From NCBI RefSeq assembly GCF_016806835.2, contig NZ_CP086111.1, forward strand, positions 5,387,471 through 5,451,470: a stretch of DNA of 64,000 bases, read 5' to 3'. This stretch comes from Skermanella rosea. GTDB lineage: Bacteria > Pseudomonadota > Alphaproteobacteria > Azospirillales > Azospirillaceae. Positions 26,290 through 55,511 of the stretch are shown here, in pieces. Below the pieces are notes generated by a model, which worked only from the letters and a program-made list of their open reading frames with translations, made no database searches and was not told the origin of the DNA. Made by a program: the position numbers and the translations under genes. Positions within the stretch are counted from its first letter, which is position 1, and the number at the start of each line of letters is the position of its first letter.

Positions 26290-26365
26290 GGGGCCGTAGC
26301 TCAGCTGGGAGAGCGACGCGTTCGCAATGCGTAGGTCGGGAGTTCGATCCTCCTCGGCTCCACCA
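26290..26365 (+). tRNA. tRNA-Ala (anticodon CGC)
   Basis: A full cloverleaf of 76 nt with encoded CCA. Acceptor stem GGGGCCG/CGGCTCC (one G-U pair), D-arm GCTC/GAGC, anticodon stem ACGCG/TGCGT around loop TTCGCAA (anticodon CGC, reading GCG Ala codons) and a T-arm with TTCGATC. Its last 17 bases are the attachment core of the adjoining island. Confidence 0.95.
26349..26365 (+). other. putative attachment site core (attL) at the tRNA 3' end
   Basis: The 17 bases cctcctcggctccacca close the tRNA and reappear, inverted, at 31543-31559. A tyrosine recombinase begins about 50 bases further on, the usual arrangement for tRNA-targeting islands. A direct copy expected at the far end (attR) was not found in the window. 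Confidence 0.65.
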
Positions 26366-26986
26366 ATCCTGCTTATCCCATTGATCTAGAGGCAAAATCT
26401 GCCCTTACGGGGTTGGAGTCCGCCCGGTGTGACACACCCCTGTCGCACACGGCGTCGGCCGAATCGCTGCCATCTCCTTCAAAATCCGCCGTTTCAGCCC
26501 GCCCTGGGTGTTGCACAGCCCTGTCGCCCAAGCGGCGTTCCACGGGGCTGTGGCTGCGGGGAGCCGTGTGGCAGTTCCGGACGCGGGTTCCGGCCGGCCT
26601 CCAGGCGGTTCTGGGCCGGACCCACATCAACCGATCCCTGAAGACCAGCAGCTACCCCGACGCTATCCGGGCGGCCCGCAGGGTGGCCTTCGAGATCGAG
26701 CAGGAATTCGATGCGGCTCGCGGGGGCATCGGAAGCGACCGGGCCCACGCCGCCAGCAACAGGACTAGCTTGTCGCCACCAGCCCCCTCGGTGACGGCCG
26801 ACGCCGTCCTGCCCGGTTCCACCGGCCCAGCCATCCATATCGACCTCGACGCCCTGGCCAACCGCATCGCCGAAAAGCTCCAGGCACCCCAACCGCCAGC
26901 CACGGAGGCAGCTATGCCCACTGCTGGGCCCGCTAAGGCGAAGACTATCCAACAGGTCTACGACGCTTATATGGCCGACCCTGGCG
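26349..26986 (+). repeat. 638-bp inverted repeat, copy 1 (tRNA end plus integrase 5' half)
   Basis: Matches 30922-31559 on the opposite strand. Both copies are exactly 638 bp; the encoded peptide is the same in both, and the stretches I compared base by base were identical. It starts at the tRNA core and ends inside the integrase gene at the MADPG codons. Confidence 0.92.
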
Positions 26987-28050
26987 TCATCCGGTCCGGC
27001 AAGACCGTCCTGGCCTACGAGACCGTGTTCGGGCTGCTGATCGAGATCATCGGCCAGGACACGCCATTGTCCGACATCGGCCGGGAGACCTGCCGCGAGG
27101 TCATGGACACCCTCCGGTGGCTGCCGCCCAACTCAACCAAGCGGTACCCGAACCTGACCGCCCGTGAGATCGCCCAGAAGGCCCGCGATGCCGGCAAGGC
27201 GTCCGGCCTCAGCCCCGCGACGGTGAACGGCTACATGACGAAGCTGTCCGCCCTCCTAACCTGGGCGGTCAACGAGGGGTTCATCGACCGGAATCCGGCG
27301 AAGGGCCTTGGCGTCGTGGACACCACCAACCGCAAGGACAAGCGGCAGCCGTTCACCCCGAAGCAGCTTCAAGCCATCTTCACCGCCCCGCTCTACACCG
27401 GTTGCCAGGACGACGACTACGGCTACGCCAAGCCGGGAGACGCCCGTCCCCGGCGGGGACGCTTCTGGGTGCCGTTGATCGGCTTGTTTGCGGGCATGCG
27501 GCTCAACGAGATCTGCCAGATGAACACCGAGGATGTCCGGGTGATCGACAGCACCCTGTGCTTTGTTGTCACGGCCGAGGCGATCAAGGGGACCGACGAC
27601 AAGCGGCTCAAGACCGGCAGCAGCGAGCGGGTCATCCCGGTCCATCCGATGTTGCTCGCGGCGGGATTCGAGGACTACGTCAGCGAGCAGCGGCGGAAGA
27701 GGAACGCCAAACTATTTCCGGAATTAACTCCAGCGAAAACTGGATACTACTCCGACATTTTCTCGAAGTGGTTCCGCCGCTTCCTACAAAAGACGGGAGC
27801 GTCGGCTGGCCGGACTTGCTTCCATAGTTTCCGCCACAATTTCCGCGACGCTCTCCGGGAGGCTCGGGTTGACCGTGAACTTGCCCTCGCCCTTGGCGGT
27901 TGGGCTGGCGACAACGGCGACATGGGCTCTGAAAGTGCCGAGTTCTACGGCCGGGGGTTCCGGGCATCGACCCTTCTGGAGGCAATCTCCAAAGTCAGCT
28001 ACCCAGAACTGAACCTTGGCCACCTGCTGATTGCCCCATCCCCGGCATAG
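26413..28050 (+). CDS. tyrosine recombinase (island integrase)
   Basis: Integrase of the tRNA-Ala island, up to 545 aa. The N-terminal region resembles DUF6538-type integrase starts (LWLRGAVWQFRTRVPAGLQAVLG), followed by a SAM-like DNA-binding domain (about 175-290) and the catalytic domain. Catalytic residues are visible: Arg in AGMRLNE, HSFRHNF (His, Arg) and the nucleophile Tyr in AEFYGRGF. The start is uncertain: the frame is open from the tRNA and TTG 26413 is only the first candidate; homology begins near 26550. The first 574 bp of this frame are duplicated in inverse at 31 kb. Confidence 0.9.
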   Translation: MESARCDTPLSHTASAESLPSPSKSAVSARPGCCTALSPKRRSTGLWLRGAVWQFRTRVPAGLQAVLGRTHINRSLKTSSYPDAIRAARRVAFEIEQEFDAARGGIGSDRAHAASNRTSLSPPAPSVTADAVLPGSTGPAIHIDLDALANRIAEKLQAPQPPATEAAMPTAGPAKAKTIQQVYDAYMADPGVIRSGKTVLAYETVFGLLIEIIGQDTPLSDIGRETCREVMDTLRWLPPNSTKRYPNLTAREIAQKARDAGKASGLSPATVNGYMTKLSALLTWAVNEGFIDRNPAKGLGVVDTTNRKDKRQPFTPKQLQAIFTAPLYTGCQDDDYGYAKPGDARPRRGRFWVPLIGLFAGMRLNEICQMNTEDVRVIDSTLCFVVTAEAIKGTDDKRLKTGSSERVIPVHPMLLAAGFEDYVSEQRRKRNAKLFPELTPAKTGYYSDIFSKWFRRFLQKTGASAGRTCFHSFRHNFRDALREARVDRELALALGGWAGDNGDMGSESAEFYGRGFRASTLLEAISKVSYPELNLGHLLIAPSPA

Positions 28051-28059
28051 GCCCGACTG

Positions 28060-28986
28060 CTATTCGAAGAAGTCCTCATCCACCCGCTTGATATGCAGGG
28101 TCTCCTCGATCCGGCACCCGACCTCGTGACGGATCATCAGCTTGGCCAGTTGGATGCCGTCGATCAACACGATGCGGGTGCCGAGCCGGTCGGCCGTCTC
28201 TCGGGCCGATGTGGTGAAGGTGGAGGTGGTGACGAACAGCCCCTTGGTCGCCTTGAACAGATTTAGGCTGCCGAAGAAGTCGCGGATCGCCCCCGCCCCA
28301 ACAGTGTTTCCATCGGCGTACCGTTTGGCCTGAACATAGACCCGGTCCAGCCCAAGCGGGTCCTGGTCGATGACGCCGTCCATACCGTCGTCGCCCGACT
28401 TACCTACTAGGGCCTTGTCGAGATCCGTCACGGACCCGCCGTATCCCATAGTAACCAGCAGGCGGACTACGGTCTTTTCGAAGAAGGAGGGCGTACCGGA
28501 CCGCACCCGCTGGAGGATCTCCTCCGCCAACGACGCCTCAATACGCACGTGGGCTTGCCGCATCACCTCATCGGGGGTTAGGGGACTCTCAGCAACCGGC
28601 AGCACGACCTCGGCAATATCGGCAGCTTCGGCCGTCCCAGCCTCGCCGTCGCGGAAGCTCTTGAAGCTCGGGAATTGCTCTAGAAACCGGATAGTAATTC
28701 GCTCCGGTGGCGACTTCAGCACGTCCCGGCCCACCGGGGTGATGCGGAAATGTGCCCGCCGCGTCAGGTCCACCAGCCCGGCTTTAGTCAGATAGCTCTT
28801 CGCCCAGTGAACCCTGTTGGCGAAGGTCGTCTGACGGCCTGACGGCAGAAGGTGGGCTCGTTCCTCGTCCGTCAACGCGAACGCGTCGGCAAGCTGGTCC
28901 ACCACGTCGCCGATGCGGACCTCGCCACCACTGGCGGCGGTCTTCAGCACGGGGAGCATCAGGGTCTGGAAATCGGGAATAGCCAT
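28060..28986 (-). CDS. Mrr-type restriction endonuclease
   Basis: 308-aa protein with the Mrr N-terminal winged-helix domain (MAIPDFQTLMLPVLK..., about 1-100) and a C-terminal PD-(D/E)xK nuclease domain: GDDGMDGVIDQD and VQAKRY form the D...QxK active site. Mrr enzymes cut methylated DNA, so this is likely a modification-dependent restriction gene of the island. The start at 28986 is the family start; the frame opens 18 codons earlier. It is convergent with the integrase (9-bp gap) and follows a truncated peptidase gene by a TGATG overlap. Confidence 0.9.
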   Translation of the reverse strand: MAIPDFQTLMLPVLKTAASGGEVRIGDVVDQLADAFALTDEERAHLLPSGRQTTFANRVHWAKSYLTKAGLVDLTRRAHFRITPVGRDVLKSPPERITIRFLEQFPSFKSFRDGEAGTAEAADIAEVVLPVAESPLTPDEVMRQAHVRIEASLAEEILQRVRSGTPSFFEKTVVRLLVTMGYGGSVTDLDKALVGKSGDDGMDGVIDQDPLGLDRVYVQAKRYADGNTVGAGAIRDFFGSLNLFKATKGLFVTTSTFTTSARETADRLGTRIVLIDGIQLAKLMIRHEVGCRIEETLHIKRVDEDFFE

Positions 28987-29132
28987 CAGGTCGGCTCCAC
29001 GCGTCGCAGCGTCAAAAAATGTTCGTTCTGGTCCAGCCATGCTCTTCTGGCCTTGCGGTCCGGCAGTATGGTTCCGACCAGCCGAAAGAAGGACCGGTCC
29101 TGGTTGCTGTGCCGAAGGTGGCAGAATTCATG
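28986..29132 (-). pseudogene. C-terminal remnant of a YgjP-like (M48/DUF45) metallopeptidase
   Basis: The last 48 codons of a leftward frame read HEFCHLRH...FFRLVGTILPDRKARRAWL, the zinc-binding HExxH helix and C-terminal helix of YgjP-like peptidases, which often sit beside restriction genes. Nothing recognisable of the N-terminal two thirds precedes it, so the gene is 5'-truncated. Its stop overlaps the mrr start (TGATG), suggesting the two were once a coupled pair. Confidence 0.65.
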
Positions 29133-29469
29133 GCCTCTGTCGGTACGGCCGCCCGCCGCGTTATGCTTGCCGCAGGCTGTACCGAATGTCCGGGACGCTG
29201 GCCAGCCGAATTGACGATTTCCTATGCCTCCTGAATGCAAAAATCGCATGGCTCTCCTATGAATCTATGTGGAATTTGCATTCTCAAACTGGAATGCAGA
29301 AACACGTGGCTGATCAAGCCGAGTCATGCAAATGACGCATAGATCTGTCCGCTAGGGCTATGTTCGCTTGCACAAGCGATTTTAGGGCTATCGCTAAAGG
29401 TGTTTCAGGTCCGCAGGAGAGCCGGAAGGAGTCGTTGGAGATTCTAGTGGTGCCGAGATAGGGGATGCA

Positions 29470-29807
29470 ACTGGAGCAGCGTCAACTTCCAGGACATCGT
29501 GCGGGAACTCAAGACCAGGGGCATGACGCTTAAAGCGACAGAGCAGCCCATCGACACTGCGTCCACCGTGGGCAAGGCATTCTTGGATATGTCATTGATT
29601 TTGGTAGAATCTGAGGCGATCCTCAGGAAGGAGCGGCAATTTGAAAGGATCACTCGGGCCAAGGCCGAAGGCACCCACACGGGCCGCAAGGCGACGCTGG
29701 ACTTCCATGCGATCAAGACTCTGAAGGCCCAGGACGTGGAGGAAAGCGAGATCGCGAGGAAGCTCGGGTTTTCTCGCGGCTTCGTCTATCATCTTTTCTC
29801 TGCGTGA
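29470..29807 (+). pseudogene. serine recombinase (resolvase/invertase) C-terminal fragment
   Basis: The frame reads through QDIVRELKTRGMTLKATEQPIDTASTVGKAFLDM, the long E-helix (ILRKERQFERITRAKAEG) and a C-terminal helix-turn-helix (ESEIARKLGFSRGFVYHLFSA). This is the second half of a resolvase. The N-terminal catalytic part with the active serine (YxRVSTxxQ) is absent upstream, so it should be inactive. An ATG at 29523 could give a DNA-binding peptide. Confidence 0.8.
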
Positions 29808-30058
29808 TCTATCGGAGGAGGGTAGGATCTTCGGACCCGGCCCCCTGAGAAAATCCCGGCTTCCTTGAGAGGCGTTGGGGTGTCCGCGTGAAAAAATGCA
29901 ACTCAGGTTCCAGGCCTCTTGGGCTTGCCTAGGCTTCCTTCAGAACCCTTCACGATCGTCGTCGCCCTCAAGGTTCTACAAGGTTCATGCCCGGGCGGGT
30001 CCGGTAACACCGGTGTCCTTTCAGCGTTGTTCAGGCTCTACCCTACCCCAGGAATCCC

Positions 30059-30796
30059 ATGATCTCCCGATGCCCCCTCTGGCCCTCGCTGGTCTTCTTC
30101 GTCTGTTTGATCGTCCTCCCAGATTTCGTCGCCGCCCAGACCCCGCCTCCGCCGCCCTTGGCGGAAACTGATCTGCTCCGCCGACAGATTGAGCTTCAAG
30201 AAGCCTTCCAAGACCAGCTTCTCGACGCCGTTTGGGCCACCCTGGCCACCATGGCCGGGATCGTGACGCTGGTTTCGGCCATCGTGGTCTTCGCCCAATC
30301 CCGGCTGTCGAGCGAACGCGTCAAGGCTATCGAGGACAGCCTCCGGAACCACATACAGGCCGAGACCGCCGAATTGGATCGTCGGCAGGCCCAGAGGCTC
30401 CAGGACGCCGTCGCTGCCCAGGAAGAGCGGCTGACCAAAGCCGCGTCAGAGACTGTCACAAAGCGGCTGATGCCCATCCATATAAAGACCGACAGAATCA
30501 GTGACCTTCAGTACTCCCTGCTTGAACTTCAGATCGAGCGGGATATCGAACGGGGCGTCACAGAGGCCGCCTTGAACAATCAACGGGAGTTGCTCGCTCT
30601 TGTCATCGGACGTGGAGAGCCCTGGAGGATACATAAAATCCTAAAAGAAATAATTACGAACTTCAATAAACCCGACGGGCGTATTAATATCCTCGACAAG
30701 GACCTCTGGTTCGATGTTTTGAAAAAGCTGGGACCGGACTATGCGGGAGATCGGGCAGCCCTGATCAAGCTGCTCGACGAGAGATCAGTGTCCTGA
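30059..30796 (+). CDS. hypothetical membrane-anchored coiled-coil protein
   Basis: 245 aa of unknown function. N-terminal signal peptide (LVFFVCLIVLPDFVAA, cleaved before QTPPPPP), a short Pro-rich stretch, one membrane segment (about 59-80: ATLATMAGIVTLVSAIVVFA) and a long charged coiled coil (about 85-140) followed by a globular-looking C-terminus. No catalytic motif is seen. It stands alone between the resolvase fragment and the inverted repeat and uses more AT-rich codons in its last third than the chromosomal genes. Confidence 0.7.
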   Translation: MISRCPLWPSLVFFVCLIVLPDFVAAQTPPPPPLAETDLLRRQIELQEAFQDQLLDAVWATLATMAGIVTLVSAIVVFAQSRLSSERVKAIEDSLRNHIQAETAELDRRQAQRLQDAVAAQEERLTKAASETVTKRLMPIHIKTDRISDLQYSLLELQIERDIERGVTEAALNNQRELLALVIGRGEPWRIHKILKEIITNFNKPDGRINILDKDLWFDVLKKLGPDYAGDRAALIKLLDERSVS

Positions 30797-30883
30797 CGCC
30801 TCACAGCCTCGGCTTGCAATCCATCGCTGATGCCTCCGGGGCCACGACGCCGTGGTTCCGGCATAGTTTCGTGACTGCCTGGA

Positions 30884-31495
30884 CTAGATCGGGCGATGCA
30901 TTGGGCTGGAGGACGACCTGTCGCCAGGGTCGGCCATATAAGCGTCGTAGACCTGTTGGATAGTCTTCGCCTTAGCGGGCCCAGCAGTGGGCATAGCTGC
31001 CTCCGTGGCTGGCGGTTGGGGTGCCTGGAGCTTTTCGGCGATGCGGTTGGCCAGGGCGTCGAGGTCGATATGGATGGCTGGGCCGGTGGAACCGGGCAGG
31101 ACGGCGTCGGCCGTCACCGAGGGGGCTGGTGGCGACAAGCTAGTCCTGTTGCTGGCGGCGTGGGCCCGGTCGCTTCCGATGCCCCCGCGAGCCGCATCGA
31201 ATTCCTGCTCGATCTCGAAGGCCACCCTGCGGGCCGCCCGGATAGCGTCGGGGTAGCTGCTGGTCTTCAGGGATCGGTTGATGTGGGTCCGGCCCAGAAC
31301 CGCCTGGAGGCCGGCCGGAACCCGCGTCCGGAACTGCCACACGGCTCCCCGCAGCCACAGCCCCGTGGAACGCCGCTTGGGCGACAGGGCTGTGCAACAC
31401 CCAGGGCGGGCTGAAACGGCGGATTTTGAAGGAGATGGCAGCGATTCGGCCGACGCCGTGTGCGACAGGGGTGTGTCACACCGGGCGGACTCCAA
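30884..31495 (-). pseudogene. truncated integrase (5' part only)
   Basis: The same N-terminal sequence as the integrase at 26413-28050 up to YDAYMADPG, then an unrelated tail of about a dozen residues to a stop at 30884. It lacks the Arg, HxxR and Tyr catalytic residues. It was made by the inverted duplication. Confidence 0.85.
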
Positions 31496-31559
31496 CCCCG
31501 TAAGGGCAGATTTTGCCTCTAGATCAATGGGATAAGCAGGATTGGTGGAGCCGAGGAGG
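30922..31559 (-). repeat. 638-bp inverted repeat, copy 2 (truncated integrase and tRNA end)
   Basis: Inverse copy of 26349-26986. On the minus strand it carries the tRNA-end core (31543-31559), the untranslated leader and about 190 codons of the integrase, after which the sequence diverges and the frame ends about 20 codons later. The integrase copy lacks the catalytic domain and cannot be active. Confidence 0.92.
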
Positions 31560-31828
31560 GGCATGGAACGGCCTCTACTGCTGGAGGTGCCCCAATTGTC
31601 CAACGCTTGTCGTCGGCGTGTCGAGATGTCGGGTGATGGATGGCGGCTGGCTTATGGTCCCTGCACCAGGAGCGAGGGCGGAGATCGACGTGCCTCCATC
31701 CGTCGTTGTGGATCCGCAGCCCTGATCGATTTTCCTGGGTTGGGTCACCCGAAGCGTCGTCCGCGACAGGCGTCCGATGGCCGAGCACCGGATCCTGGCT
31801 CAGCCTTGCCGGCCTGACCGCCAGCTAG

Positions 31829-32389
31829 TCATGCGGTCGTCCTCGCCTCTCGCAAAGCCCTGAACACACTCGACCGGCTGATTGCCAGCTTGGCTGCGAT
31901 CTCGGCGGGGCGGGCACCGGCCCGGTGGAGGTCGATCACCTCACTGAACCGTCGCTGGGCCGTTGGAGCCCGGCCGCGATACTTGCCCGCAGCCTTCGCC
32001 TGGGCGATGCCGATCTTCTGCCGCTCGAGCAGCAGCCTCCGCTCGAACCCGGCGACCGCAACGACGATCTCGGCGATCATCCTGCCAGTCGGACTGGTCG
32101 TGTCGATCCCGAGATCCAGGACGCGGATCGCCACCTTCTTCCGCTCCAGTCGGTCGAAGACTTCGCAGAAGTGGGCAGTGCTACGGCAGAGCCGGTCCAA
32201 GCGGGTGACAATCAGAACGTCGCCGTCACGGACGAAGTCGAGACACGCCTCAAGCTGCGGTCGGGATCCGACTGCGGACACCTGCTCCTGGAAGATCCTC
32301 TCGACACCTAGCCGGCGGAGTTGTTCGACCTGATCGTTGAAGCCGGCGGCCTGATCGATGGTTGATGTGCGGGCGTATCCGACCAGCAT
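31829..32389 (-). CDS. serine recombinase (resolvase/invertase family)
   Basis: 186-aa site-specific recombinase. MLVGYARTSTIDQAAG holds the catalytic Ser10 region; VTRLDRLCRS, the GRMIAEIVVAVAGFERRL helix and a C-terminal helix-turn-helix (RPAEIAAKLAISRSSVFRALRE) complete the resolvase/invertase layout. ATG 32389 is the family start; the frame is open 20 codons further. The gene faces the second inverted repeat. Candidate recombination or operator sequence lies just upstream (32400-32429). No transposase is adjacent. Confidence 0.9.
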   Translation of the reverse strand: MLVGYARTSTIDQAAGFNDQVEQLRRLGVERIFQEQVSAVGSRPQLEACLDFVRDGDVLIVTRLDRLCRSTAHFCEVFDRLERKKVAIRVLDLGIDTTSPTGRMIAEIVVAVAGFERRLLLERQKIGIAQAKAAGKYRGRAPTAQRRFSEVIDLHRAGARPAEIAAKLAISRSSVFRALREARTTA

Positions 32390-32399
32390 GGGGGTCCCA

Positions 32400-32429
32400 G
32401 TTCCACATGATCCTAAAATGCAGTGGAAC
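32400..32429. promoter_or_regulatory. inverted repeat upstream of the serine recombinase
   Basis: GTTCCAC at 32400-32406 and GTGGAAC at 32423-32429 form a 7-bp inverted repeat with 16 bases between, 11 bp before the recombinase start codon. This is the place for a resolvase subsite or autoregulatory operator. The assignment rests on position alone. Confidence 0.35.
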
Positions 32430-33484
32430 ACAGTGCCAAAATGGGTCAAGGAAACCCATGTGGTACTCCGGCGGCCAGTGTCGCATCGGTAGAGGCTATT
32501 GGAACTCGACCTGAGTTGGCGGGCCGGTCTGGACAGCGGCGGTAAGCACGATCACAGCGGTGATGTCGGGCACGAGACCACATGCCTCCGCCCTGGCCGC
32601 GCTGCGCGCGGCCAGGAGAGCCACTGTGATGGCAGAGAAGACAGAGGCAGGGTCATGATGAAGTGCTGGCTAGGCAAAAATCTGAGGCATCCAGGAGCAT
32701 GCCCTGATTCCGACCTCTTCAATGTTCTGCGGAAATCCCTTAGTCAATATCGGCGAGAACCTGCGGTCGATGATTAAAGGATCACCGCGGGCCTGTGATC
32801 ATTGTCAATGGAGCGGCTTGGGGAATGTCATGGCCTCACGGGTGCCGCTAACGGGTGGACATGGCAAGCAAGCGGAATAAGCCTCACTCCTGACAAACAA
32901 CATTAGGGGGGGTAAATGTGCTACTATGTAAACATAGTAACACAATCCCCTCCAGCCCTAATCCTGTGTATCAGGTGCGAAGCTCAACCGTAAACCGCAG
33001 CCTTCAGCCGTGTATACGCTCGGGCTTCGCCCGGAACGTGATCTGGTCGGTCACAACCGTCGTCACTCCATCGATACTAGGCGTGCGTCGCTCGCGGGAG
33101 CGAGCGACCACGCGGTTCGTCGCTCATCGGACCGTGCGAGCAAGCTCGCCCAGTCCGCTTCGCTTGAACCATATTGCTCCGCAAGGGGAAACCGGAAAGA
33201 TCAGGCTGAGCGATGACTCACGCGATGATCCGGTTGCCAACCATATCGATTTGGGCCGGAGGCCCGGTCGTTGCTCTTCGTTCGCTCCATGACGCAGGGG
33301 CCGCTGCGCGGCCCCTGCGTAGTTGTCTGTTCGTTCACCAATCCGATTTCTGGGGTGAAGGCCGGTCGTTGACCCAATCCAGGATCGGGTGCCGTCGGGA
33401 CGTTGACGTGGCCCTGGTCAGCCGATACAGGGGCCGCTGCGCGGCCCCATCGTTGATCCCGCCGTGGAGGACAAGGAAGGCACC
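32430..33484. other. gene-poor region with palindromes
   Basis: About 1.05 kb without a convincing gene. It holds an 8-bp inverted repeat TACTATGT-AA-ACATAGTA at 32922-32939 (operator-like) and a 12-bp GC hairpin at 33293-33319; its core, GGGGCCGCTGCGCGGCCCC, is repeated at about 33430-33448. The open frames here have mixed composition and no family match that I recognise. Confidence 0.5.
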
Positions 33485-33991
33485 ATGGCCAGGAAGCCCA
33501 AGCCAGTATTGGAGCGGATCATGGCGGCAATCCAAGCCCCACCGGGAGGCACCGAGCCCGACGCCTGCTGGACCTGGATCGGGCGATTCGAAAATGGACA
33601 ACCGGTCATCAAGGTTGCGGGCCAGCGGAAAGCCGTTAGGCCGATAGTCTACCGATACGCATACGGTAACCCGCCGCCGTCCCGCTTTGTCGCCTATCCG
33701 CGGATCAAACTGAGATGCGGCAATCCGGCATGTGTGCGGCCGGATCACATGCAGCTGAAAACCGATGCTGATAGGGAATTAAGGGAAATTGTCGCTGAAC
33801 TACACAGGACTGCCCGTCAGCAACTCGCCCGTGATCCCAGCAATCCAAAGCTACAGCGGATGGCCATGCCCTGGTTCATCAAATGGAGGGCCGGCAAGAT
33901 CCTAGCCGACCGACAGCGGCACCGCGAGGCCGCTACCAGTGAACCCGTGCGAGACATACTTCGCCAAATCTGGCGGCGGCCAGTGCCATAG
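33485..33991 (+). CDS. HNH-like nuclease-fold protein, possibly inactive
   Basis: 168 aa. CWTWIG near residue 27 and the C-terminal-type motif LRCGNPACVRPDHMQL near residue 75 are the layout of small phage-style HNH endonucleases. The usual catalytic His of the first strand (HR.AY) is replaced by Tyr-Arg in IVYRYAYG, so cleavage may be lost. A helical tail follows. ATG 33485 gives MARKPKPVLERIM; the frame opens seven codons earlier. It stands alone and ends before a perfect 32-bp palindrome. Confidence 0.6.
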   Translation: MARKPKPVLERIMAAIQAPPGGTEPDACWTWIGRFENGQPVIKVAGQRKAVRPIVYRYAYGNPPPSRFVAYPRIKLRCGNPACVRPDHMQLKTDADRELREIVAELHRTARQQLARDPSNPKLQRMAMPWFIKWRAGKILADRQRHREAATSEPVRDILRQIWRRPVP

Positions 33992-34053
33992 TCCGTAGCA
34001 GACTGGTGACCGAGACGTAATAGTGGAAATGGGCCGGGTCCAGGAATGGGTAG

Positions 34054-34085
34054 CCACACCGGCGCCCCGCGGGGCGCCGGTGTGG
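34054..34085. terminator. perfect 32-bp palindrome between convergent genes
   Basis: Two 16-bp arms (34054-34069 and 34070-34085) are perfectly complementary with no spacer. It lies between the HNH-like gene and the leftward DUF6880-like gene, so bidirectional termination is the simplest role; the following bases (cctaaaaagg) include only a short A-run. Confidence 0.6.
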
Positions 34086-34162
34086 CCTAAAAAGGCATGT
34101 CCCATCCGATTTGGTGAATGAAATTGTGATTGTCGTACTCACACTCTAATAGGCACATTTCA

Positions 34163-35350
34163 TCAGGCTCGCGACTGTCGTCGAGGCTTTTCCTCCAACA
34201 ACGGCCAGAACGCAGACTTCCGCCCATGCTGCTGCCGAAGCCGATCCACGACGGCGGCGTGATCCTCATGTCCTTTCCAGTTGGTTACCGCCTCTGCAAT
34301 CTGACCCGCTGAGAGCACATCTTTTGCCGCGTAGGAGTAGTGCTTTGAGCGAGCCTCCTTGAGCACTGCCTCGGCCATCACCCGGTAAAGCACCACCGCC
34401 GCCAGCGGCTGATCGGTGGCGAGTTGTTTGGCGATTGGACGAAGATCATGGTACCAACGGCCATCAATCTCGGGCAGTCGCTTCAGAATGATCTGTCCGG
34501 CCACGGCTGTCGCACCAACGCCGACGGGGAATTGAAGAGCGGCGAGTACATCCTCGTGCTGGACGGCAGTTTCGGTCGCCCTCACCGTCGCCGCATGGGC
34601 AGTTTCAGCAGGGAGATGCCGCACATAGTCGCGGAAGTGCTCCAGACTGAGCTTTCTCACCACCCAGTCCCATCGCACCGCCTGGGCGTCATCCTGACGA
34701 TCAAGAGCCGTCAGAGCGGCGATGCGGATGTTGACCGTACTCTGTTCACCGCCCAGCCCTCGACCATCCCATCGATCAAGCCATTGCAATGCTTCAGCGG
34801 GGCGTCCCGCCTTCAGCATCCGTGCCGCAATCTCGATTGCACGACGCTCCGCGAATCCGGTCTGCTCGACCGTCGCGACAAACGCGTCCGGATCGCCTTT
34901 GGCATCGGCGATCTGGATCAGTCCGCGAATAAGCCGATTCGTATCGTGATCGATCTGGTCCGTCGTTGAGCCTCGGGTGGGCGAACTGAGTTTGCCGCGG
35001 ATCAACTGAGTGAGTGCGTCGAGGCCCTCCGGACCCAGAGCATCAACGAAGGCAGGGATGATGCCATCTTTCAAACCGTAGTTGTTATGCTCGAACTCGT
35101 GCAGCACGACACCGGCAAGAGCTTCCGGCCGGCGGTCGCGAACGCCCGACCAGACCCGTCCCCAGTCCTGGACGGCAAGGTGGAACACGTCGCCGATACT
35201 GCCACTGCTGTCGTCCGCTCGCCCGTAAACCCGGTCGCTGGCATGAATGAAGTCGGCGAGAAGATCGGCGGCGGGAGTACGGAGGCAGGCGTTTGAGCAC
35301 CAAGTGGGTACGGAACGAATTGTTTCCGTACCTACTTTTCCTTCAATCAA
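34163..35350 (-). CDS. DUF6880-like protein, probably 5'-truncated
   Basis: The frame matches the C-terminal two thirds of DUF6880 proteins as I remember them: FIHASDRVYGRADDSSGSIGDVFHLAV, then helical repeat segments (IEIAARMLKAGRPAEALQWLDRW..., LYRVMAEAVLKEARSKHYSYAAKDVL) that resemble TPR/HEAT-like helices. The first recognisable homology begins near codon 25; the conserved N-terminus of the family is missing and the DNA upstream (35351-35450) is AT-rich and non-coding. The start at 35350 (TTG) is therefore arbitrary. Function unknown. Confidence 0.55.
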   Translation of the reverse strand: MIEGKVGTETIRSVPTWCSNACLRTPAADLLADFIHASDRVYGRADDSSGSIGDVFHLAVQDWGRVWSGVRDRRPEALAGVVLHEFEHNNYGLKDGIIPAFVDALGPEGLDALTQLIRGKLSSPTRGSTTDQIDHDTNRLIRGLIQIADAKGDPDAFVATVEQTGFAERRAIEIAARMLKAGRPAEALQWLDRWDGRGLGGEQSTVNIRIAALTALDRQDDAQAVRWDWVVRKLSLEHFRDYVRHLPAETAHAATVRATETAVQHEDVLAALQFPVGVGATAVAGQIILKRLPEIDGRWYHDLRPIAKQLATDQPLAAVVLYRVMAEAVLKEARSKHYSYAAKDVLSAGQIAEAVTNWKGHEDHAAVVDRLRQQHGRKSAFWPLLEEKPRRQSRA

Positions 35351-43286: not shown

Positions 43287-43418
43287 ATGCGGATACCTGC
43301 TGCGATATGTCTGGGTTTGGCCCTGCTGTTGGGCGGCTGCGGTGACAGCGACGATGACGACGATGACCGGCAGGGCGGAATTTCCCAGCAGCAGAATGAT
43401 GATGATGACGATGACTAG
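43287..43418 (+). CDS. tiny Asp-rich lipoprotein
   Basis: 43 aa. MRIPAAICLGLALLLGGCGD is a lipoprotein signal with lipobox LGGC; the mature part is a run of Asp with a short Gln/Gly/Ser linker. An AGGAG ribosome site lies at 43275-43279. The TAG stop is made by the TA target duplication and the first base of the MITE; the uninterrupted site would also read TAG, so insertion left the protein unchanged. A role in cation binding at the cell surface is only a guess. Confidence 0.65.
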   Translation: MRIPAAICLGLALLLGGCGDSDDDDDDRQGGISQQQNDDDDDD

Positions 43419-43518
43419 TGCACTGACGCATTCAAAAGATTCAGAGAGCGATATGCAAGCTCATGTGTAGACTGCATTTTTGCTGTTCTCGGTGCATCTC
43501 TTGTATGCATCAGTGTAC
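43418..43518. mobile_element. 101-bp MITE, copy 1 (IS630-type target)
   Basis: Identical to 61115-61215. Ends are imperfect inverted repeats of about 25 bp (GTGCACTGACGCAT at the left, GTACACTGATGCAT at the right on the other strand) and it is flanked by TA duplications inside a CTAG site. No coding capacity. It sits at the stop codon of the small lipoprotein gene. Confidence 0.88.
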
Positions 43519-43644
43519 TAGCTCTGCCTCTAAAAGGACATAGCTACAGACCATGTAGCTGTCTCTGCAGCCACACGAAAGCGATGCTCCAGGATAAATA
43601 AACTTGGCTGCCAACGCAGTCATTTATTATATCAGGAGAAAACA

Positions 43645-46659: not shown

Positions 46660-48036
46660 TTGCTTGGGACGGAACGGCGTGATCGTGTTGTCATCCTCGG
46701 TGCATGCGTACTAGCGTTCATCGTTTCAGCCAGTTTCGATCTGATCGGCAGCATCCACGACTACCTTGATCATCTGGAGCAGCCCCAGGTTGAAAGGATC
46801 GTGACGGCTCTTGGGGTCGCCGTGGTGGTCGGAGCCATTGGTCTGGCTTGGTATTCCCGCCGGCGGCTTGCCGACTACCGAAGGGAGTTTGCCCGCCGGG
46901 TCGAGATAGAGGCCTCCCTGAGGCGGACCGAGCAACGTCTGACGGACGCCATCGAGAGCATGTCGGACGGTCTGGTGCTGCTCGATGCCGATCAGCGGTT
47001 CGTGATGTGCAACAGCCGGTACCGGGAGTTCTATCCGGAACTGGCTTCCCGCCTGACACGGGGAACGCCGGTGTCGGCGATCATCGGACCCGGTGCAAGA
47101 GAGGCTGACCTGTGCGAACACGGCACCACGACCGACACCGCACTGGTGCAGGTGGTCGAGAGCGGGCAGATCAGCCCCGATGCGGAGTGCTGGCTTGCCA
47201 CGGGACGCTGGATCCGCATCAGTGACCGGCACACCGGAGACGGCGGACTGGTCGGGATCCGGACCGACATAACCTCCTTGAAGCTGAACGAGGAGGCTCT
47301 CAGGAAAGCCAGCGGACGAGCGGAGTCGGCCAGTCTGGCCAAGTCGCAGTTCCTAGCCCACATGAGCCATGAGCTTCGCTCGCCCCTGAATGTCATCATC
47401 GGTTTCGCCGAGATGATCGAGTCCCGGATCTTCGGCTCGCTCGGCAGCCCAAAGTACGAGGAGTACATCCGCGATATCCGTGAAAGCGGGCAGCACCTGC
47501 TGGCCCTGATCAACGACATTCTGGACCTGTCGAAGATCGAGGCCGACAAGTACGTGCTTAATCCCGAGCCGATGGCGGTCCCGGACCTGATCAGAACCTG
47601 TCAGCGAGCCTTCCGGCTCAGGGCGGAGGAGGTCGGCGTCAGGCTGGAATACAGTGGTGGTGAGCTTCCGAGGATTACTGCCGATGAACGGGCGATCAAG
47701 CAGGTGTTGATCAACCTGCTGTCCAACGCCATCAAGTTCACCCCGCCAGGCGGTACGATCACGCTCCAGGCCGCGGTCGAGGGGCCGACGGTGATGATCT
47801 CCGTCGCCGACACCGGCGAGGGGATCCCCGCCGCCGACCTGCCGCGGATCGGGCAACCCTTCGAGCGGTCGGTGAAGCCGGACGGCATACAGAGGGATGG
47901 GACTGGCCTGGGACTGGCCCTCAGCCGCCGGCTGGTTGAACTTCACCGCGGATCGCTGGAGATCAGCAGCCAGGAGGGGATCGGCACCCAAGTGACAATG
48001 CGGCTGCCCCTGTCGCTGGAACGGCAGGCTGCCTGA
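46660..48036 (+). CDS. membrane-bound PAS sensor histidine kinase
   Basis: 458 aa. Two membrane segments (about 10-28 and 46-66), a coiled coil, one PAS domain (about 85-205), HisKA with acceptor His in AHMSHELRSPLNVI near residue 241 and a HATPase domain (NLLSNAIKFTP, DTGEGIP, GTGLGLAL). TTG 46660 gives MLGTERRDR; no better start is seen. The sensor class is that of soluble-ligand or redox PAS kinases. No response regulator follows directly; the nearest is at 49513. Confidence 0.85.
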   Translation: MLGTERRDRVVILGACVLAFIVSASFDLIGSIHDYLDHLEQPQVERIVTALGVAVVVGAIGLAWYSRRRLADYRREFARRVEIEASLRRTEQRLTDAIESMSDGLVLLDADQRFVMCNSRYREFYPELASRLTRGTPVSAIIGPGAREADLCEHGTTTDTALVQVVESGQISPDAECWLATGRWIRISDRHTGDGGLVGIRTDITSLKLNEEALRKASGRAESASLAKSQFLAHMSHELRSPLNVIIGFAEMIESRIFGSLGSPKYEEYIRDIRESGQHLLALINDILDLSKIEADKYVLNPEPMAVPDLIRTCQRAFRLRAEEVGVRLEYSGGELPRITADERAIKQVLINLLSNAIKFTPPGGTITLQAAVEGPTVMISVADTGEGIPAADLPRIGQPFERSVKPDGIQRDGTGLGLALSRRLVELHRGSLEISSQEGIGTQVTMRLPLSLERQAA

Positions 48037-48103
48037 TCCACTGGAAAGCAGGCAGCAGGTCGGTTCAACCCCTTGGCCCTCTGCTCTCGAGAAAGGAGCG
48101 AGC

Positions 48104-48508
48104 CTAGAGGGGCGGAGTTGAGGCACGGAAGAAAGCGGTCACCATCCTGCGGACCAGGACGGCAACTGCCAACCCGATCAACGCCCCGAGCGAGTTGACC
48201 GCGACATCGGCCCAGTCGGGCTGCCGTCCAGGTGAGAAGGTTTGAAGCAGTTCGAGAAGCCCGCCGAACCCGATGGCGGCTCCGACGATCATGCCGGGAG
48301 CGGCCCGCCCCGACCAGCCCAACGCAACCAGGAGGCTCAGCACCGAATAAGCGACCAGATGATCGAGTTTATCGCCAAAGCCGGTCCCGATGGCGGGCGA
48401 CCGAGGCGACAGAGATGCGGCGGTGATGACGATGGCGGCACTGGTGGCTGCCACTCGGATCAGGTAGGTCTTTGGGACGCGGAGAAGAGAGCAATCAGTG
48501 GAGGCCAT
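48104..48508 (-). CDS. VanZ-like membrane protein
   Basis: 134 aa, four membrane segments. DKLDHLVAYSVLSLL and the LLELLQTFSPGRQPDWADVAVNSLGALIGL segment are the VanZ-family pattern (acidic/His residues in the first loop, D-A/D in the last). Many small VanZ-like proteins are unrelated to teicoplanin resistance and have unknown roles. The start at 48508 gives MASTDCSLLRVPKTY; the longer frame is a shadow of the cupin gene on the other strand. Confidence 0.8.
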   Translation of the reverse strand: MASTDCSLLRVPKTYLIRVAATSAAIVITAASLSPRSPAIGTGFGDKLDHLVAYSVLSLLVALGWSGRAAPGMIVGAAIGFGGLLELLQTFSPGRQPDWADVAVNSLGALIGLAVAVLVRRMVTAFFRASTPPL

Positions 48509-48667
48509 TCCCCATTCATACCGGACGACGGTGAAGGAACCGTCAAGGCGGGAGAGCTTTCTTGCTGCAAGCCGCATTCGTTGCCACTCAGGCTTGTTCG
48601 GCCGAACCACTGCCCAACAACCCAGGATCGTGGCACCATGGATGGAGAACAGGGGAGGAGAACCGAG

Positions 48668-49051
48668 ATGAAGTTCACCGTGAGCCACGCCGATGAGAGC
48701 GAGTTCACCCATGATGGCCTGAGGGCATTCTTCGAGTACCGCGACCTCGGGATCAAGGAGGCGACTGCCGGGCGGTTCAATGCCCATGTTATCCGGGCTC
48801 AGTCGGGTGAGAGATCGCCTGGGGAGTGGCACCAGCACGATATCGACTTCCAGATGGTGTATGTCCTGCGGGGTTGGGTGCGGTTCGAGTACGAGGGCAT
48901 TGGCGAGGTGCTGCTCCGGCGGGGATCGTGTGTCCATCAGCCAGCAGGCATCCGGCACCGCGAGGTCGAGCATTCCGATGACCTGGAGATGCTGGAGATC
49001 ACGTCTCCCGCTGAGTTCGGGACTGAGGTTGTGGAGGCCCTAACTTCGTGA
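48668..49051 (+). CDS. cupin-domain protein
   Basis: 127-aa single cupin barrel. Metal-site motifs WHQHDIDFQMVYVLRG (two His and a Glu-equivalent position) and the second motif RRGSCVHQPAGIRHREVEHS near residue 95 are present. It is similar in layout to small alphaproteobacterial cupins of unknown substrate. ATG 48668 follows gagaaccgag. Divergent from the VanZ-like gene. Confidence 0.85.
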   Translation: MKFTVSHADESEFTHDGLRAFFEYRDLGIKEATAGRFNAHVIRAQSGERSPGEWHQHDIDFQMVYVLRGWVRFEYEGIGEVLLRRGSCVHQPAGIRHREVEHSDDLEMLEITSPAEFGTEVVEALTS

Positions 49052-49512
49052 GTGTCTTGGCTGGGTCGTTGCCCACCGCAGGCTGATCCCGATGGGGGCA
49101 GCAAACACAGCGGAGCAACGCCCAGGACCGTGCTCTGGACAAGAACGACGTCATAGGACGGCCATTCTGGTGATTGACGGCCGACATCGTCCATCATACC
49201 CAAGCGACAGGTTCGTTGCAGCGGCTCCAGCACGAGAACGTGTTATGGTTGAACAGGCATCAATGAAGTACCGATGCGGAAGGGCACACATGCCAGGATC
49301 GCACACCCCCTTGCCGAGTTATCATCCCTGTATTCGGTAACTATACTCCGATCTAATCCGAGTAATACTTAGATAATCATGCCATCACTGGTTTCCACAC
49401 CCGGTTCCTTTGGGTTCCCTGCGAAGGAATACGACATATCTCTTCAAGTTCGTTGCCATCTCGAATGATAGCGATAATCATTACAGATTACTCACTGGAT
49501 GACGGTGACAAG
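49052..49512. other. region without a firm gene
   Basis: About 460 bp upstream of a receiver gene, AT-richer than neighbours after 49330. It likely holds the receiver promoter. No terminator, repeat or RNA gene recognised. Confidence 0.4.
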
Positions 49513-49968
49513 ATGCGGACCTTGATCGTTGAGGATGACCCTCTGGTCGCCTTGGCCCTTAGGCTGTACCTGACAGAGCTTGGGCACATCGTGGTCGGCA
49601 CTGCTGCCGACACCGATGGGGTTCTGCAACTGGCGGACGACGGCCTGAAGGCTGATTTGGCACTCGTTGACCTTCATCTCGCACGGGGGTCGTGTGGTAT
49701 CGAGGCCGCTGTGCAGCTACGTTATCTGACCGGCATCGCCTCGGTATTCCTGACCAGTGATGCTGACGGAGCCCATGCAGCTCGGCATACAGCTATAGGA
49801 TGCCTGATCAAGCCGATCTGTGCTTCACAGCTTGCTGCCGCTCTGACTGCCCTTGAGGCCCTCGTACAAGGGCGGATGCCACAATACGTCCCCGACCGGC
49901 TTGAGCTATTTCCGACGGCTTTGGCCACATGTTCGACGCCACTACATCGCGGTGACCAACCGAACTGA
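49513..49968 (+). CDS. single-domain response regulator
   Basis: 151 aa, receiver only. IVEDDPLVALAL (acidic pair), acceptor Asp in ALVDLHLARG near residue 54, Thr/Ser in FLTSDAD and Lys in CLIKPI are present. LARGSCGIEAA resembles receivers paired with HWE/HisKA_2 kinases. ATG 49513 is chosen over an upstream GTG by the receiver start. Tail of about 30 residues without motif. Convergent with the kinase at 50046. Confidence 0.88.
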   Translation: MRTLIVEDDPLVALALRLYLTELGHIVVGTAADTDGVLQLADDGLKADLALVDLHLARGSCGIEAAVQLRYLTGIASVFLTSDADGAHAARHTAIGCLIKPICASQLAAALTALEALVQGRMPQYVPDRLELFPTALATCSTPLHRGDQPN

Positions 49969-50045
49969 TCAGCCCTCAGCTATCACCCTGCCTGGAATGC
50001 TCCTGGCAGCCATGGTCGCAGTGTGTGCGTTTTCCTTCCGCCAAG

Positions 50046-51515
50046 TTAAGCTCCCGATCTGGCCAGTCTTCTTGCCGACGCCACCTCGATCCGAAACACC
50101 GACCCTTTACCGGGAGCGGATGAGACCTCCATCCGATGCCCGAGCAGAGCCGTCAGGCGGTTGACGACGGCTAAGCCGATCCCGAAGCCCTCGCTGGCGT
50201 TGTGGGCTCTGTCATCACCTCGGTGGAACTCACGGAAGATGTCGCCGAACTGATCCGGCGGTATGCCGATGCCGGTGTCCCACACCTCGATGCTGACCAT
50301 CGCTCCACGTCGTCGGCATCCGATCAGCACACGTCCCTGTTCCGTGTACCGGACTGCATTGGAGATCAGGTTCCGCAGGATCCGTTCCAGGAGCAGCGGA
50401 TCGCTCCGTACTTCCAGGCTCGTGTTCACCACGATCAGGTCCAGGCCTTTCTCGGCTGCCTGGGCAGTGAACTCTCCGGCCAGCCTGCCGAGCAGGTCGC
50501 CCAGCATCACCGGCCCGATATCCGGCTCGACCGCCCCGGCTTCCAGCTTCGACATGTGGATGATCGCATCCAGCAGGTCTGACAGCGACCTGACCGATTG
50601 TTGGATCAACCCGACGAGGTTCGATGCGGAGGGTTCCATCACCCGGCGGTCCAGCAGCTTGGCGAACAGGGCGACGGCCTGGATGGGCTGGCGGAGGTCG
50701 TGGCTTGCGGCGGCCAGGAAGCTCGTCTTAGCACGGCTCGCCTGCTCGGCGGTCAGCTTATCCGTGAGCAGCTTGTCCTCGGCCCGCTTCTGTTCGGTGA
50801 TGTCGCGGGCGACGCAGAGAATACCGATGATCTCGCCGCTTTCCGACCGCAGAGGCATCTTGAGCTTCTCGATGGTCTTGCCACCTGTCGCAAGCTTGAG
50901 CGATTGATCAACGGTCACAAGATTTTCGCCAGTCCGCATGACCTGCTGGTCCTCGCGGCGAACAGCCTCGGCATCGGATGGATCCATGATGTCATAGTCG
51001 GTAATGCCGGGAACGGCACGCGATGAGGCAAGCCCGACGACCTCGGCGAATATCCGGTTCCCGCCGAGGTACCGGGACTGCCGGTCCTTCCAGTAGACAG
51101 CGTGAGGGATCTGATCGAGGACCAGCCAGAGCGGATCGCTTCCCCCTGCAACTTCACCCGCCTCCGGAGCCGTAATCCTCTCGTTGGCGTGGATCACGGC
51201 TCCGGATACCGCCCCCGCCTCCGTGGTCACCGGCACGATTACGACGTTGAACCAGCGGCCCCGGCTCTGAAGTCCGGTCCTGAGTGATTGCCCACAGGTG
51301 ATAACGCTCATCGCGGAGTCATGCAGCAGGGCACCGTTAGATCCGGCGACCTCGCGGATGTACCTGCCGTGGATCGCTTCAGGAGGAACGGTGACAAGCT
51401 CAGCGGCAACCTGGCTGGCCGTTTCAATCCTGCCGTCACGGTCAACCAGGATCAGGGGATACTGGACCGTGCTCAGAATGGCAGACAGAAGGTCCTGCTC
51501 TTTCTGTAGTGCCAT
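50046..51515 (-). CDS. PAS-domain sensor histidine kinase
   Basis: 489-aa soluble kinase. Two PAS domains (about 8-110 and 125-245), a coiled-coil linker, HisKA with His in AAASHDLRQPIQAV near residue 268 and HATPase (NLISNAVRYTEQG, DTGIGIPPD, GFGIGLAV). The SHDLRQP variant is typical of a proteobacterial kinase subgroup often found as hybrids; here no receiver is attached. The start is ATG 51515. The nearest receiver is convergent at 49513. Confidence 0.86.
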   Translation of the reverse strand: MALQKEQDLLSAILSTVQYPLILVDRDGRIETASQVAAELVTVPPEAIHGRYIREVAGSNGALLHDSAMSVITCGQSLRTGLQSRGRWFNVVIVPVTTEAGAVSGAVIHANERITAPEAGEVAGGSDPLWLVLDQIPHAVYWKDRQSRYLGGNRIFAEVVGLASSRAVPGITDYDIMDPSDAEAVRREDQQVMRTGENLVTVDQSLKLATGGKTIEKLKMPLRSESGEIIGILCVARDITEQKRAEDKLLTDKLTAEQASRAKTSFLAAASHDLRQPIQAVALFAKLLDRRVMEPSASNLVGLIQQSVRSLSDLLDAIIHMSKLEAGAVEPDIGPVMLGDLLGRLAGEFTAQAAEKGLDLIVVNTSLEVRSDPLLLERILRNLISNAVRYTEQGRVLIGCRRRGAMVSIEVWDTGIGIPPDQFGDIFREFHRGDDRAHNASEGFGIGLAVVNRLTALLGHRMEVSSAPGKGSVFRIEVASARRLARSGA

Positions 51516-51831
51516 CAACCGCCTTCTTTATACAGAATCCAACTGGAATATCAGTTTGTTTCCCGGATTAGCAATGCTGCATCTTAGAGTTCTCCAGCCG
51601 GCAACTTTTTAGCCTCACTATGACGGATGATATTTGCCCAGGATCAGAAGTTCAATTATCAATAATATGATGCATCCTGGATGACGGAGCATCATGGGCA
51701 TGAGCATGGCCGAGCCACCGGCCAGTCACGTTACCGGCATCCAGTCCGGCCGTTCGATCCGACGCCAGGGTTTGATGCCATATTGGTTGTCCGAAGAAAG
51801 CTGACGGTGCCCCCTGGAGCGGAGCAGGCAG
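51516..51831. other. region without a gene
   Basis: About 315 bp containing the promoter region of the leftward kinase. An open rightward frame (51681-51881) has shadow composition. Confidence 0.4.
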
Positions 51832-51990
51832 TCAGGCGGCTTTGCGGCAGGTTGGCCGCAACCGCTCCTTCATCTCGTTGAGGAATAGGCGAACCTCCTC
51901 AACCTTCAAACCATCGCGGGCCAGCACGGCGTGCAGGATCGGGTCGTCGAGTAGGTCATCAAGCGAGGGTTCAGGTCTTCTCTTGTCCAT
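51832..51990 (-). CDS. small hypothetical protein
   Basis: 52 aa, MDKRRPEPSLDDLLDDPILH..., helical and charged, with a good ribosome site (GGAGG five bases plus upstream of the start at 51990). The pattern DDLLDDPIL-HAVLARDGL resembles small conserved proteins that accompany plasmid or island genes in this group (recollection only). Function unknown. It was too short for general detection but has coding composition. Confidence 0.65.
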   Translation of the reverse strand: MDKRRPEPSLDDLLDDPILHAVLARDGLKVEEVRLFLNEMKERLRPTCRKAA

Positions 51991-52161
51991 TGGTAAACCT
52001 CCAAGAATGAGTTGCTGATCTCCGGAACCGTGTTCCTTATCAGTGGATCATGACCAACACGTGAAACCTGGGGCGGCCGCTCCGGCATAGCCCAGATGGA
52101 CGCGTGTGGTTTGCGAAGTATTACTGGAAACGATACTGGCTGCTCAGGCCACTCAGGCTTA

Positions 52162-52566
52162 TCACCACCAGCCCGGCGGCCGGACGACCACGAGGTCGAT
52201 CAGCCCGTTGCTCCGGTCATCGTACCGTTGGATGCGGGTGGCTGCCCGAGCTATCCACGAGCGTTCGGCGGCCTCGGCCGCAGTCAGCCAGTCGGAAGCA
52301 AGAGGGCGAACACCGTGCAGCCATGTCCACTCGTCCGGTCGGATCGCAACGACAGTCCCATCGCCTCGCTCGGATTGCAGACGGCCGTAGGCCAAAGCCG
52401 CATCCCAAGTAGCGGAGCAGGCGGTGCCGTAGCTGTGGATCCTGATCAGATCGCCCGTGGTGGAGAACACGACTTCCAGAATGTCCGGGACTGGTCGCTC
52501 GCGGCGGCCCGATGTCAGACAAGGCGGCACGGCGGTCGGTAGAGTGACCCGGCGTGGCAGCAGCAT
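52162..52566 (-). CDS. hypothetical protein
   Basis: 134 aa. Short Pro/Arg-rich start, then ILEVVFSTTGDLIRIHSYGTACSATWDAALAYGRLQ... with a mixed alpha/beta look; no known motif. Start ATG 52566 lies next to gggggaaacg. A single gene on the minus strand; function unknown. Confidence 0.55.
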   Translation of the reverse strand: MLLPRRVTLPTAVPPCLTSGRRERPVPDILEVVFSTTGDLIRIHSYGTACSATWDAALAYGRLQSERGDGTVVAIRPDEWTWLHGVRPLASDWLTAAEAAERSWIARAATRIQRYDDRSNGLIDLVVVRPPGWW

Positions 52567-55396: not shown

Positions 55397-55511
55397 TCAG
55401 TTGTTCAGCCTGACGGGTTCTCCATGCTGCTTGCACATCGGCAACGGCACGCCCCACGGGCTTGTCTGGCCTGATTGATGTTCTTCGGTGATGAAGTCAA
55501 GCCACTGGGGG

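Follow-up and report, generated by a model that had tools for sequence, protein, structure and literature searches.

One of the closest described parallels to the locus considered here comes from Archaea, where the attachment site attP of the suicidal (SSV-type) integrases lies inside the integrase gene, int, and integration disables that gene (PMC8371274). In the excerpts of that article on which this comparison draws, recombinases that disrupt their own gene are stated to be exclusively archaeal, homologous inversion between related elements is proposed to yield chimeric integrase genes in archaeal elements, and the way in which elements crippled by integration leave again is an open question for the suicidal integrases. 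Further systems are relevant, again as excerpts of the reports describe them: attP of mycobacteriophage BPs lies in the repressor gene, with integration-dependent immunity (PMC4557955); the int promoter of KplE1-type prophages overlaps attL (PMC2951348); and ICEclc carries an outward-facing constitutive promoter, Pcirc (PMC9286271). The present work concerns a window of 64,000 nucleotides (nt) from Skermanella rosea (contig NZ_CP086111.1, positions 5,387,471 to 5,451,470), which covers the left end of a 51-kb island. The island sits in the 3' end of a tRNA-Ala(CGC) gene, where its own tyrosine integrase inserted it. It belongs to a family in the Azospirillaceae with a pair of attP regions that point in opposite directions: integration splits one of them into attL and attR, and the other lies intact and inverted inside the island.

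As in the SSV-type elements, attP of the S. rosea island would lie in the int reading frame and integration would disable int. Unlike in those elements, the host is bacterial, the loss would be confined to the promoter and the first codons of int, and the partner for rebuilding the gene would be present in cis, in the same island, as the inverted attP. The domains also differ, being DUF6538 and PF00589 here, with no match to Phage_integr_3 (PF16795). The island may thus work like a suicidal integrase, but outside that family. As with BPs, an attP in a coding frame would tie gene output to integration; the BPs repressor is shortened at its 3' end, whereas here the 5' end of int would be removed, and the island has a further, inverted attP inside it. 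As in the KplE1-type prophages, int adjoins the junction and its promoter is entangled with att, but in KplE1 the promoter and ATG lie in the attL region and int is autoregulated, whereas here no start precedes the core at attL. Pcirc of ICEclc reportedly drives int only in the circle, and a far-end promoter of the present island would likewise read across the closed circle toward int; an inverted second attP is not described for ICEclc in the excerpted text. DNA-inversion switches and the yeast 2-micron circle have two unique segments bounded by inverted repeats that contain recombination sites. Inverted repeats also flank segments here, in two pairs, but this is a chromosomal island with tRNA-derived att sites, and no amplification is shown for it. 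Among the matches listed in the open-licence literature, no island with an internal inverted attP was found.

The island runs from 26349 to about 77309 (window coordinates, continued beyond 64000 where needed), with a G+C content of 0.59–0.62 against 0.70 on both flanks. The attR core (77288–77313), which lies outside the window, has the same orientation as attL at 26349, and the congener G002 shows an uninterrupted tRNA–core–chromosome sequence, that is, the empty site. Within the island, the initial annotation had pointed to equal-length inverted copies that start from a shared tRNA core, and its coordinates are exact (Table 1). Pairwise comparison of the two copies in full shows 638 bp at 100% identity, with zero mismatches and no outward extension, so there are no scattered differences between them; a repeat finder gives 641 nt and BLAST one mismatch for the same repeat. 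A perfect repeat of this length is far beyond chance, and the sequence occurs at two places only in its own genome (7.76 Mb, 7 contigs searched). Both arms start at the identical tRNA core CCTCCTCGGCTCCACCA, of which a core search of the genome found a third copy 13 kb past the window end, oriented like the tRNA.

This duplication is real, but it is only half of the object. Comparison of the region 22530–92529 with itself by BLAST revealed a second inverted pair (31535–35274 versus 77316–73577; 3740 bp, 99.97%), which is perfect over the 3737 bp listed in Table 1 and has its far copy beyond the window. This outer repeat of the right arm terminates at the island attR, 42 kb from the internal copy. 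The block 30919–35274 (∼4.36 kb) thus consists of a P arm, the core and the 5' part of int (int5'), inverted within the island. It represents attP as it would occur in an excised circle, lying inverted inside the island, and its other 3.7-kb half pairs with attR. A circle closed by attL x attR would carry two inverted attP regions that separate S1, the 3.9-kb segment between the 638-bp arms, from S2, the 38.3-kb cargo between the P arms. The presence in a tRNA island of a second attP, inverted and conserved, is the firm result of this analysis.

The same plan recurs among relatives, and a duplication peculiar to the source genome was accordingly rejected. Integrase matches at E ≤ 1e-60 were found in 9 of 82 family genomes; in a class-wide sample searched at 1e-70 they were found in 5 of 385, namely the source genome and four others at 41–46% identity. 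The nearest named relatives are Azospirillum, and the nine family genomes include A. canadense (G072), A. isscasi (G080), A. rugosum (G087) and A. agricola (G064). Of the nine that gave an integrase match, five have the order attL, inverted attP, attR. All three cores lie on one contig in S. rosea (G000), A. canadense and G102. The repeats on the int side (P') and on the P side measure 638 and 3737 bp in S. rosea (both 100% identical), 466 and 2887 bp in A. canadense (both 100%) and 566 bp (91.3%) and 2854 bp (100%) in G102. The A. isscasi contig C201 holds attL and the inverted int5' copy, and both C201 and C355 (attR) overlap a 4395-bp P-arm contig, C187, by 77 bp. A. rugosum has attL on C6 and S1 on C50, while C33 reads int5'–core–P arm–S2–P arm–attR; C6 and C33 begin with the same 94 bases, both ends of C50 carry the same 19 int5' bases in opposite orientation, and the middle of int5' is on no contig seen. 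The contigs of A. agricola end in or near int. A relic is present in G084, with int5' pieces at tRNA-Ala and at a lone P arm and no full int at 1e-60. G082, with an island remnant, and G088 make up the rest of the nine.

Five of the genomes with more distant integrases served as controls: G365 (46% identity, 60 kb), G088 (49%, 56 kb), G454 (41%, 15 kb), G030 (37%, 40 kb) and G007 (34%, 20 kb). Among repeats of at least 100 bp in these stretches, no inverted int5' copy was found. G365 and G088 each have one inverted repeat (384 and 237 bp) outside int; that of G365 (C1:3448927–3450843) is perfect, has its arms 1.1 kb apart and lies about 11 kb from the distant int relative near tRNA-Met. A scan of viral contigs gave no relative, and a plasmid search gave four records, all below 35% identity.

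The plan is also found with a different integrase. In G001 (C1:2071026–2135234) an island at tRNA-Met encodes an integrase of 366 aa and is built on repeats of 3963 bp (100%) and about 570 bp, the latter comprising 450 bp at 100% and 210 bp at 95.7% and interrupted by an insertion. Its cargo is mostly 86–90% like that of S. rosea, and old tRNA-Ala cores with their ATG are retained at both cargo ends, as if the integration module had been replaced. Separately, at the tRNA-Ala locus of G001 (C1 near 5458550–5458800), an inverted int5' fragment, now decayed, and a degenerate core lie ∼1 kb from the tRNA and are followed by chromosome; an older island of this kind seems once to have been present there.

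The two int copies of S. rosea differ in extent. The left copy is full length and matches DUF6538, a SAM-like domain and PF00589 above cut-off; at E ≤ 0.001 DUF6538, PF13102 and PF00589 are its only domain matches. R363, H471, R474, W497 and Y512, which are presumably the catalytic residues, are invariant across five sequences. A predicted structure of Int had a mean pLDDT (the predictor's own confidence score) of 34 and was not used, and a search by sequence for solved relatives gave none at E ≤ 0.001. The right copy is cut after about residue 191–194, and DUF6538 is its sole match.

Examination of the frame places the likely start of int on the other side of the core. At attL the int frame is open from the tRNA onward, and the only ATG, GTG or TTG between the in-frame TAG of the tRNA and DUF6538 is a TTG at 26413. 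At each of the seven attL sites read, a count that includes G082 and G084, the TAG stands six codons upstream of the core and no start codon intervenes. On the P side, in contrast, an in-frame start codon lies 2–3 codons before CTCCTCGGC in each of the seven genomes in which a P arm was read. It is ATG in S. rosea, G102, A. canadense, G084, G001 and A. rugosum, and GTG in A. isscasi; in G001 only the old core remains, adjoining another integrase, and one A. agricola core in a tRNA-Ala(GGC) gene without an adjacent int was left out of the count. Start candidates downstream of the core are not conserved (TTG at codon 21 in S. rosea, GTG at codons 21 and 25 in A. isscasi), and int of G082 has no ATG, GTG or TTG between core and DUF6538. 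Because starts are conserved on the P side, and attL offers a TAG and no start before the core, int in its natural form seems to start on the P side, in the order promoter, ATG, core read as LLGST and then int; such a start is considered likely.

Consistent with a P-side start, a promoter-like motif, TCGAC(N)-17/18-GACAAT, is present 36–38 bp before the core in seven of eight P-arm sequences, and the eighth (G001) has TTGGCA-17-GATAAT. In the window the motif is the site at 31624–31595, and a scan of 1.2 kb found two such sites against 0.1 expected. Beyond this motif, blastn detects nothing else shared by the P arms of S. rosea and A. canadense. Some other pairs of P arms have a recombinase stretch in common, and the 67 bases adjoining the core are the same in G102, G084 and A. 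rugosum.

The P arms also encode a recombinase, which is of the serine type in S. rosea and G102 and of the tyrosine type in A. canadense (Pfam); it is assigned to the serine type by 77% DNA identity in G001 and by eye in G084. A 29-bp hairpin upstream of the serine recombinase (32588–32616) was considered as a recombination site and dropped, being absent from the P arms of G102 and A. rugosum. Its sequence occurs exactly in the S. rosea P arms and once in G001, where a similar hairpin lies just inside the other repeat end. A perfect 34-bp palindrome is found at 34053–34086 of the P arm. It is absent, allowing up to 8 mismatches, from the sequence read of the other six islands, and a 94% match to it occurs elsewhere in G017.

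These features suggest how the island might work. If attP lies within the first codons of int, with promoter and start codon on the P side and the remainder of the gene on the P' side, integration would strip int of its normal start: the full gene would be left at attL with the tRNA in front. The internal inverted attP would meanwhile retain promoter and ATG, fused to ∼214 codons counted from that ATG (∼191 from TTG 26413). Inversion of S1, either by RecA acting on the 638-bp repeat or by Int acting on the two inverted cores, would place the catalytic part behind promoter and ATG and so restore a complete gene. The arrangement would then constitute an OFF/ON integrase switch, by which the integrated island could make Int again and leave. 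The initial annotation had noted that inversion would shift the catalytic part of int and leave a full-length frame either way, and this geometry is right. Its further statement, of an integrase intact in both orientations, applies to the frame only, since an in-frame start codon is found on the P side of the core and none precedes the core at attL.

Evidence that the copies interact comes from two relatives. G102 and A. isscasi have int truncated at the same point, with 97.4% identity over the next 1 kb; the truncated copy in these genomes is therefore one inherited object. Despite this, the truncated copies are only 85.1% alike, whereas each is closer to the full int5' of its own genome (91.1% and 92.2%). 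Indeed, 41 informative sites group within genomes, 2 group by copy type and 1 is crossed. As judged from this site pattern, the int5' copies of G102 and A. isscasi are shown to evolve in concert. In S. rosea and A. canadense the int copies are identical up to the cut.

Inversion is also apparent in the cargo. G102 718946–745033 corresponds to A. rugosum C33 2933–29040 at 98.4% over 26,111 columns, but the S2 end that adjoins attR in G102 adjoins the inverted attP in A. rugosum, so that the cargo occurs in both orientations in these two genomes of the Azospirillum group. From the sequences, this can be accounted for by inversion in place or by integration via the other attP, and either route would require two working inverted sites or repeats.

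Several observations weigh against the proposed switch. The S1-inverted state was seen in no genome: the full int is at attL in all five decidable cases (interrupted in G082), and A. rugosum is ambiguous. The repeat in G102 and A. isscasi would be a poor RecA substrate, because its int5' copies are only 91–92% alike. In A. rugosum, three bases at the very ends of C50, beside the shared 19, differ. The island remnant of G082 has an interrupted int, no inverted attP and one core in the genome. The promoter scores are singly weak, 35–50 of 300 shuffles being as good in six of the eight P-arm sequences, although they are better in S. rosea (7 of 300) and G001 (2 of 300). Moreover, the tRNA promoter could serve int at attL, the scans having covered P-arm sequences, and conservation of the motif is partly plain descent, given the 67 core-adjacent bases common to G102, G084 and A. 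rugosum. Non-ATG starts are present downstream of the core in several genomes. The leader from the core to about codon 25 has no codon-position bias, with 15/22, 15/23 and 11/23 variable sites at the three positions in five sequences and 16/22, 16/23 and 18/23 in seven, whereas DUF6538 does show such bias (10, 6 and 20 of 55); translation of the leader is for this reason unproved. The ratio of nonsynonymous to synonymous substitution for truncated versus full copies (0.55 and 0.38) resembles that for full versus full copies (0.34–0.54), but it is uninformative for the truncated copies, because the full gene copies into them and selection cannot be separated from copying. Finally, the start-codon argument fails to explain G001, because there the 3' end of the integrase faces the core.

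The most substantial alternative treats the inverted attP as a passive relic. On this view, tandem integration of two related elements at the tRNA would have been followed by an inversion spanning the junction between them, after which one attP remained inverted. RecA would homogenise any long inverted repeat, recurrence would reflect descent, and the loss of the start at attL would have no regulatory role. By reasoning, the observed order of parts does result when a tandem pair is inverted across its attP junction, and common descent covers G102, A. isscasi and A. rugosum, because one truncation point is shared. Just outside attR in G102 (C1:713662–715843), a 2.2-kb stretch that is 85–87% like parts of S1 and includes a second Mrr-like frame looks as if left by a tandem element; it fits repeated integration at one site in that species. 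An origin by two integrations, which the initial annotation offered, is possible. Decayed forms also exist, in G082 and G084. However, five of the nine genomes retain the plan, with three different truncation points (the shared one and those of S. rosea and A. canadense), and the G084 relic has a fourth; the P-side start codon is kept in seven of seven, even where the P arms share little else; and S1 and S2 of S. rosea are not copies of one another, contrary to expectation from an identical pair. A relic origin is a possible explanation, though on balance an unlikely one.

A second alternative puts the cargo at the centre, in that the P-arm repeats would make S2 invertible or, in the circle, amplifiable, as in other elements with long inverted repeats, with the int5' copy as a passenger. 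The P arms are indeed 99.97–100% identical over 2.9–3.7 kb in S. rosea, A. canadense and G102, S2 is known in both orientations, a further site-specific recombinase is encoded in the P arms of five genomes (S. rosea, G102, A. canadense, G001 and G084), and the cargo-flanking repeats persist in G001 despite its different integrase. The P arms of A. rugosum have nevertheless diverged (83% over 668 bp), no gene was seen to be switched at the edges of S2, and amplification is pure analogy. This explanation is judged improbable.

More doubtful still is a function for the truncated int, in which the 226-aa DUF6538 product of the internal attP would bind arm sites and regulate Int or give directionality. 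In S. rosea, A. canadense, G102, A. isscasi and G084, no stop interrupts the frame between the P-arm start and the truncation, and the promoter-like motif precedes it. The truncation point nevertheless varies between genomes, selection on the truncated frame is inseparable from copying by the full gene, and G082 has lost the truncated copy. An assembly artefact is scarcely credible: repeats as long as these (0.6 and 3.7 kb) are well known to cause misassembly, but the contig extends over 6.1 Mb, and A. canadense, G102 and G001 show the same plan with other sequence.

Weighed against these alternatives, inversion of S1 as a real integrase switch is the best-supported mechanism, with about an even chance of being correct. 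The fuller proposal is held more tentatively, at somewhat less than even: a bacterial self-disabling integrase with its own cure, in which the stored attP would re-arm int by inversion and decide exit, and the same sites would flip the cargo.

Table 1. Features of the tRNA-Ala(CGC) island and its inverted attP in the window
Feature	Position	Strand	Basis
tRNA-Ala (CGC), integration target	26290–26365	+	ARAGORN; empty site in congener G002
attL core, 22 bp also found at the inverted attP, at attR and in the unoccupied attB of G002	26349–26370	+	
Left arm of 638-bp repeat: core and 5' part of int (P' arm)	26349–26986	+	repeat comparison
Full tyrosine integrase int (DUF6538, SAM-like, Phage_integrase)	26413–28050	+	open reading frame (ORF), domain matches
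S1, segment between the 638-bp arms, flipped if inverted	26987–30921	.	ORFs, repeat comparison
Mrr-type (type IV) restriction endonuclease gene adjoining int	28060–29040	-	domain match
Truncated-int ORF, 226 aa; ATG 31564–31562 in P arm, through core into DUF6538; without catalytic domain	30884–31564	-	
Right arm of 638-bp repeat: truncated int 5' copy and core, inverted	30922–31559	-	repeat comparison
P arm of inverted attP; perfect inverted copy of 73577–77313	31538–35274	.	BLAST, pairwise comparison
Internal inverted attP core	31543–31559	-	core search
Promoter-like TCGACA-18-GACAAT upstream of in-frame ATG	31595–31624	-	motif scan
Serine recombinase (resolvase/invertase family, 206 aa) in P arm, direction as int5'	31829–32449	-	domain match
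S2, cargo between the inverted P arms, continuing to 73576 beyond the window	35275–64000	.	

The remaining contents of the island are as follows. Besides the 3' part of int, S1 contains the Mrr gene, a serine recombinase fragment (29499–29807) and an ORF of 245 aa (30059–30796), and the int–Mrr stretch is conserved in G102, A. isscasi and G082. Transfer genes were not matched among the 10 ORFs scanned (8 of S2 and 2 of the P arm). In the cargo at 46660–58127 there are several histidine kinases, two of which were scanned and have HisKA, HisKA_2/HWE, GAF and PAS domains, together with frames that look response-regulator-like by eye; homologous cargo is present in G001. A sequence of 107–109 bp occurs in S2 as three 100% copies, at 43415–43523, 61112–61220 and, inverted and beyond the window, 71614–71720.

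In practical terms, inverted att regions cause assemblies to break at int, of which A. rugosum and A. isscasi are examples, and they could hide islands from att finders that seek direct repeats only. If the proposed reading is true, islands can keep two inverted att regions across species, varying both the island ends and the orientation of the cargo. It would also offer a concrete, in-cis answer to the question of how islands with an integration-crippled integrase leave, namely by a stored attP and an invertible integrase.

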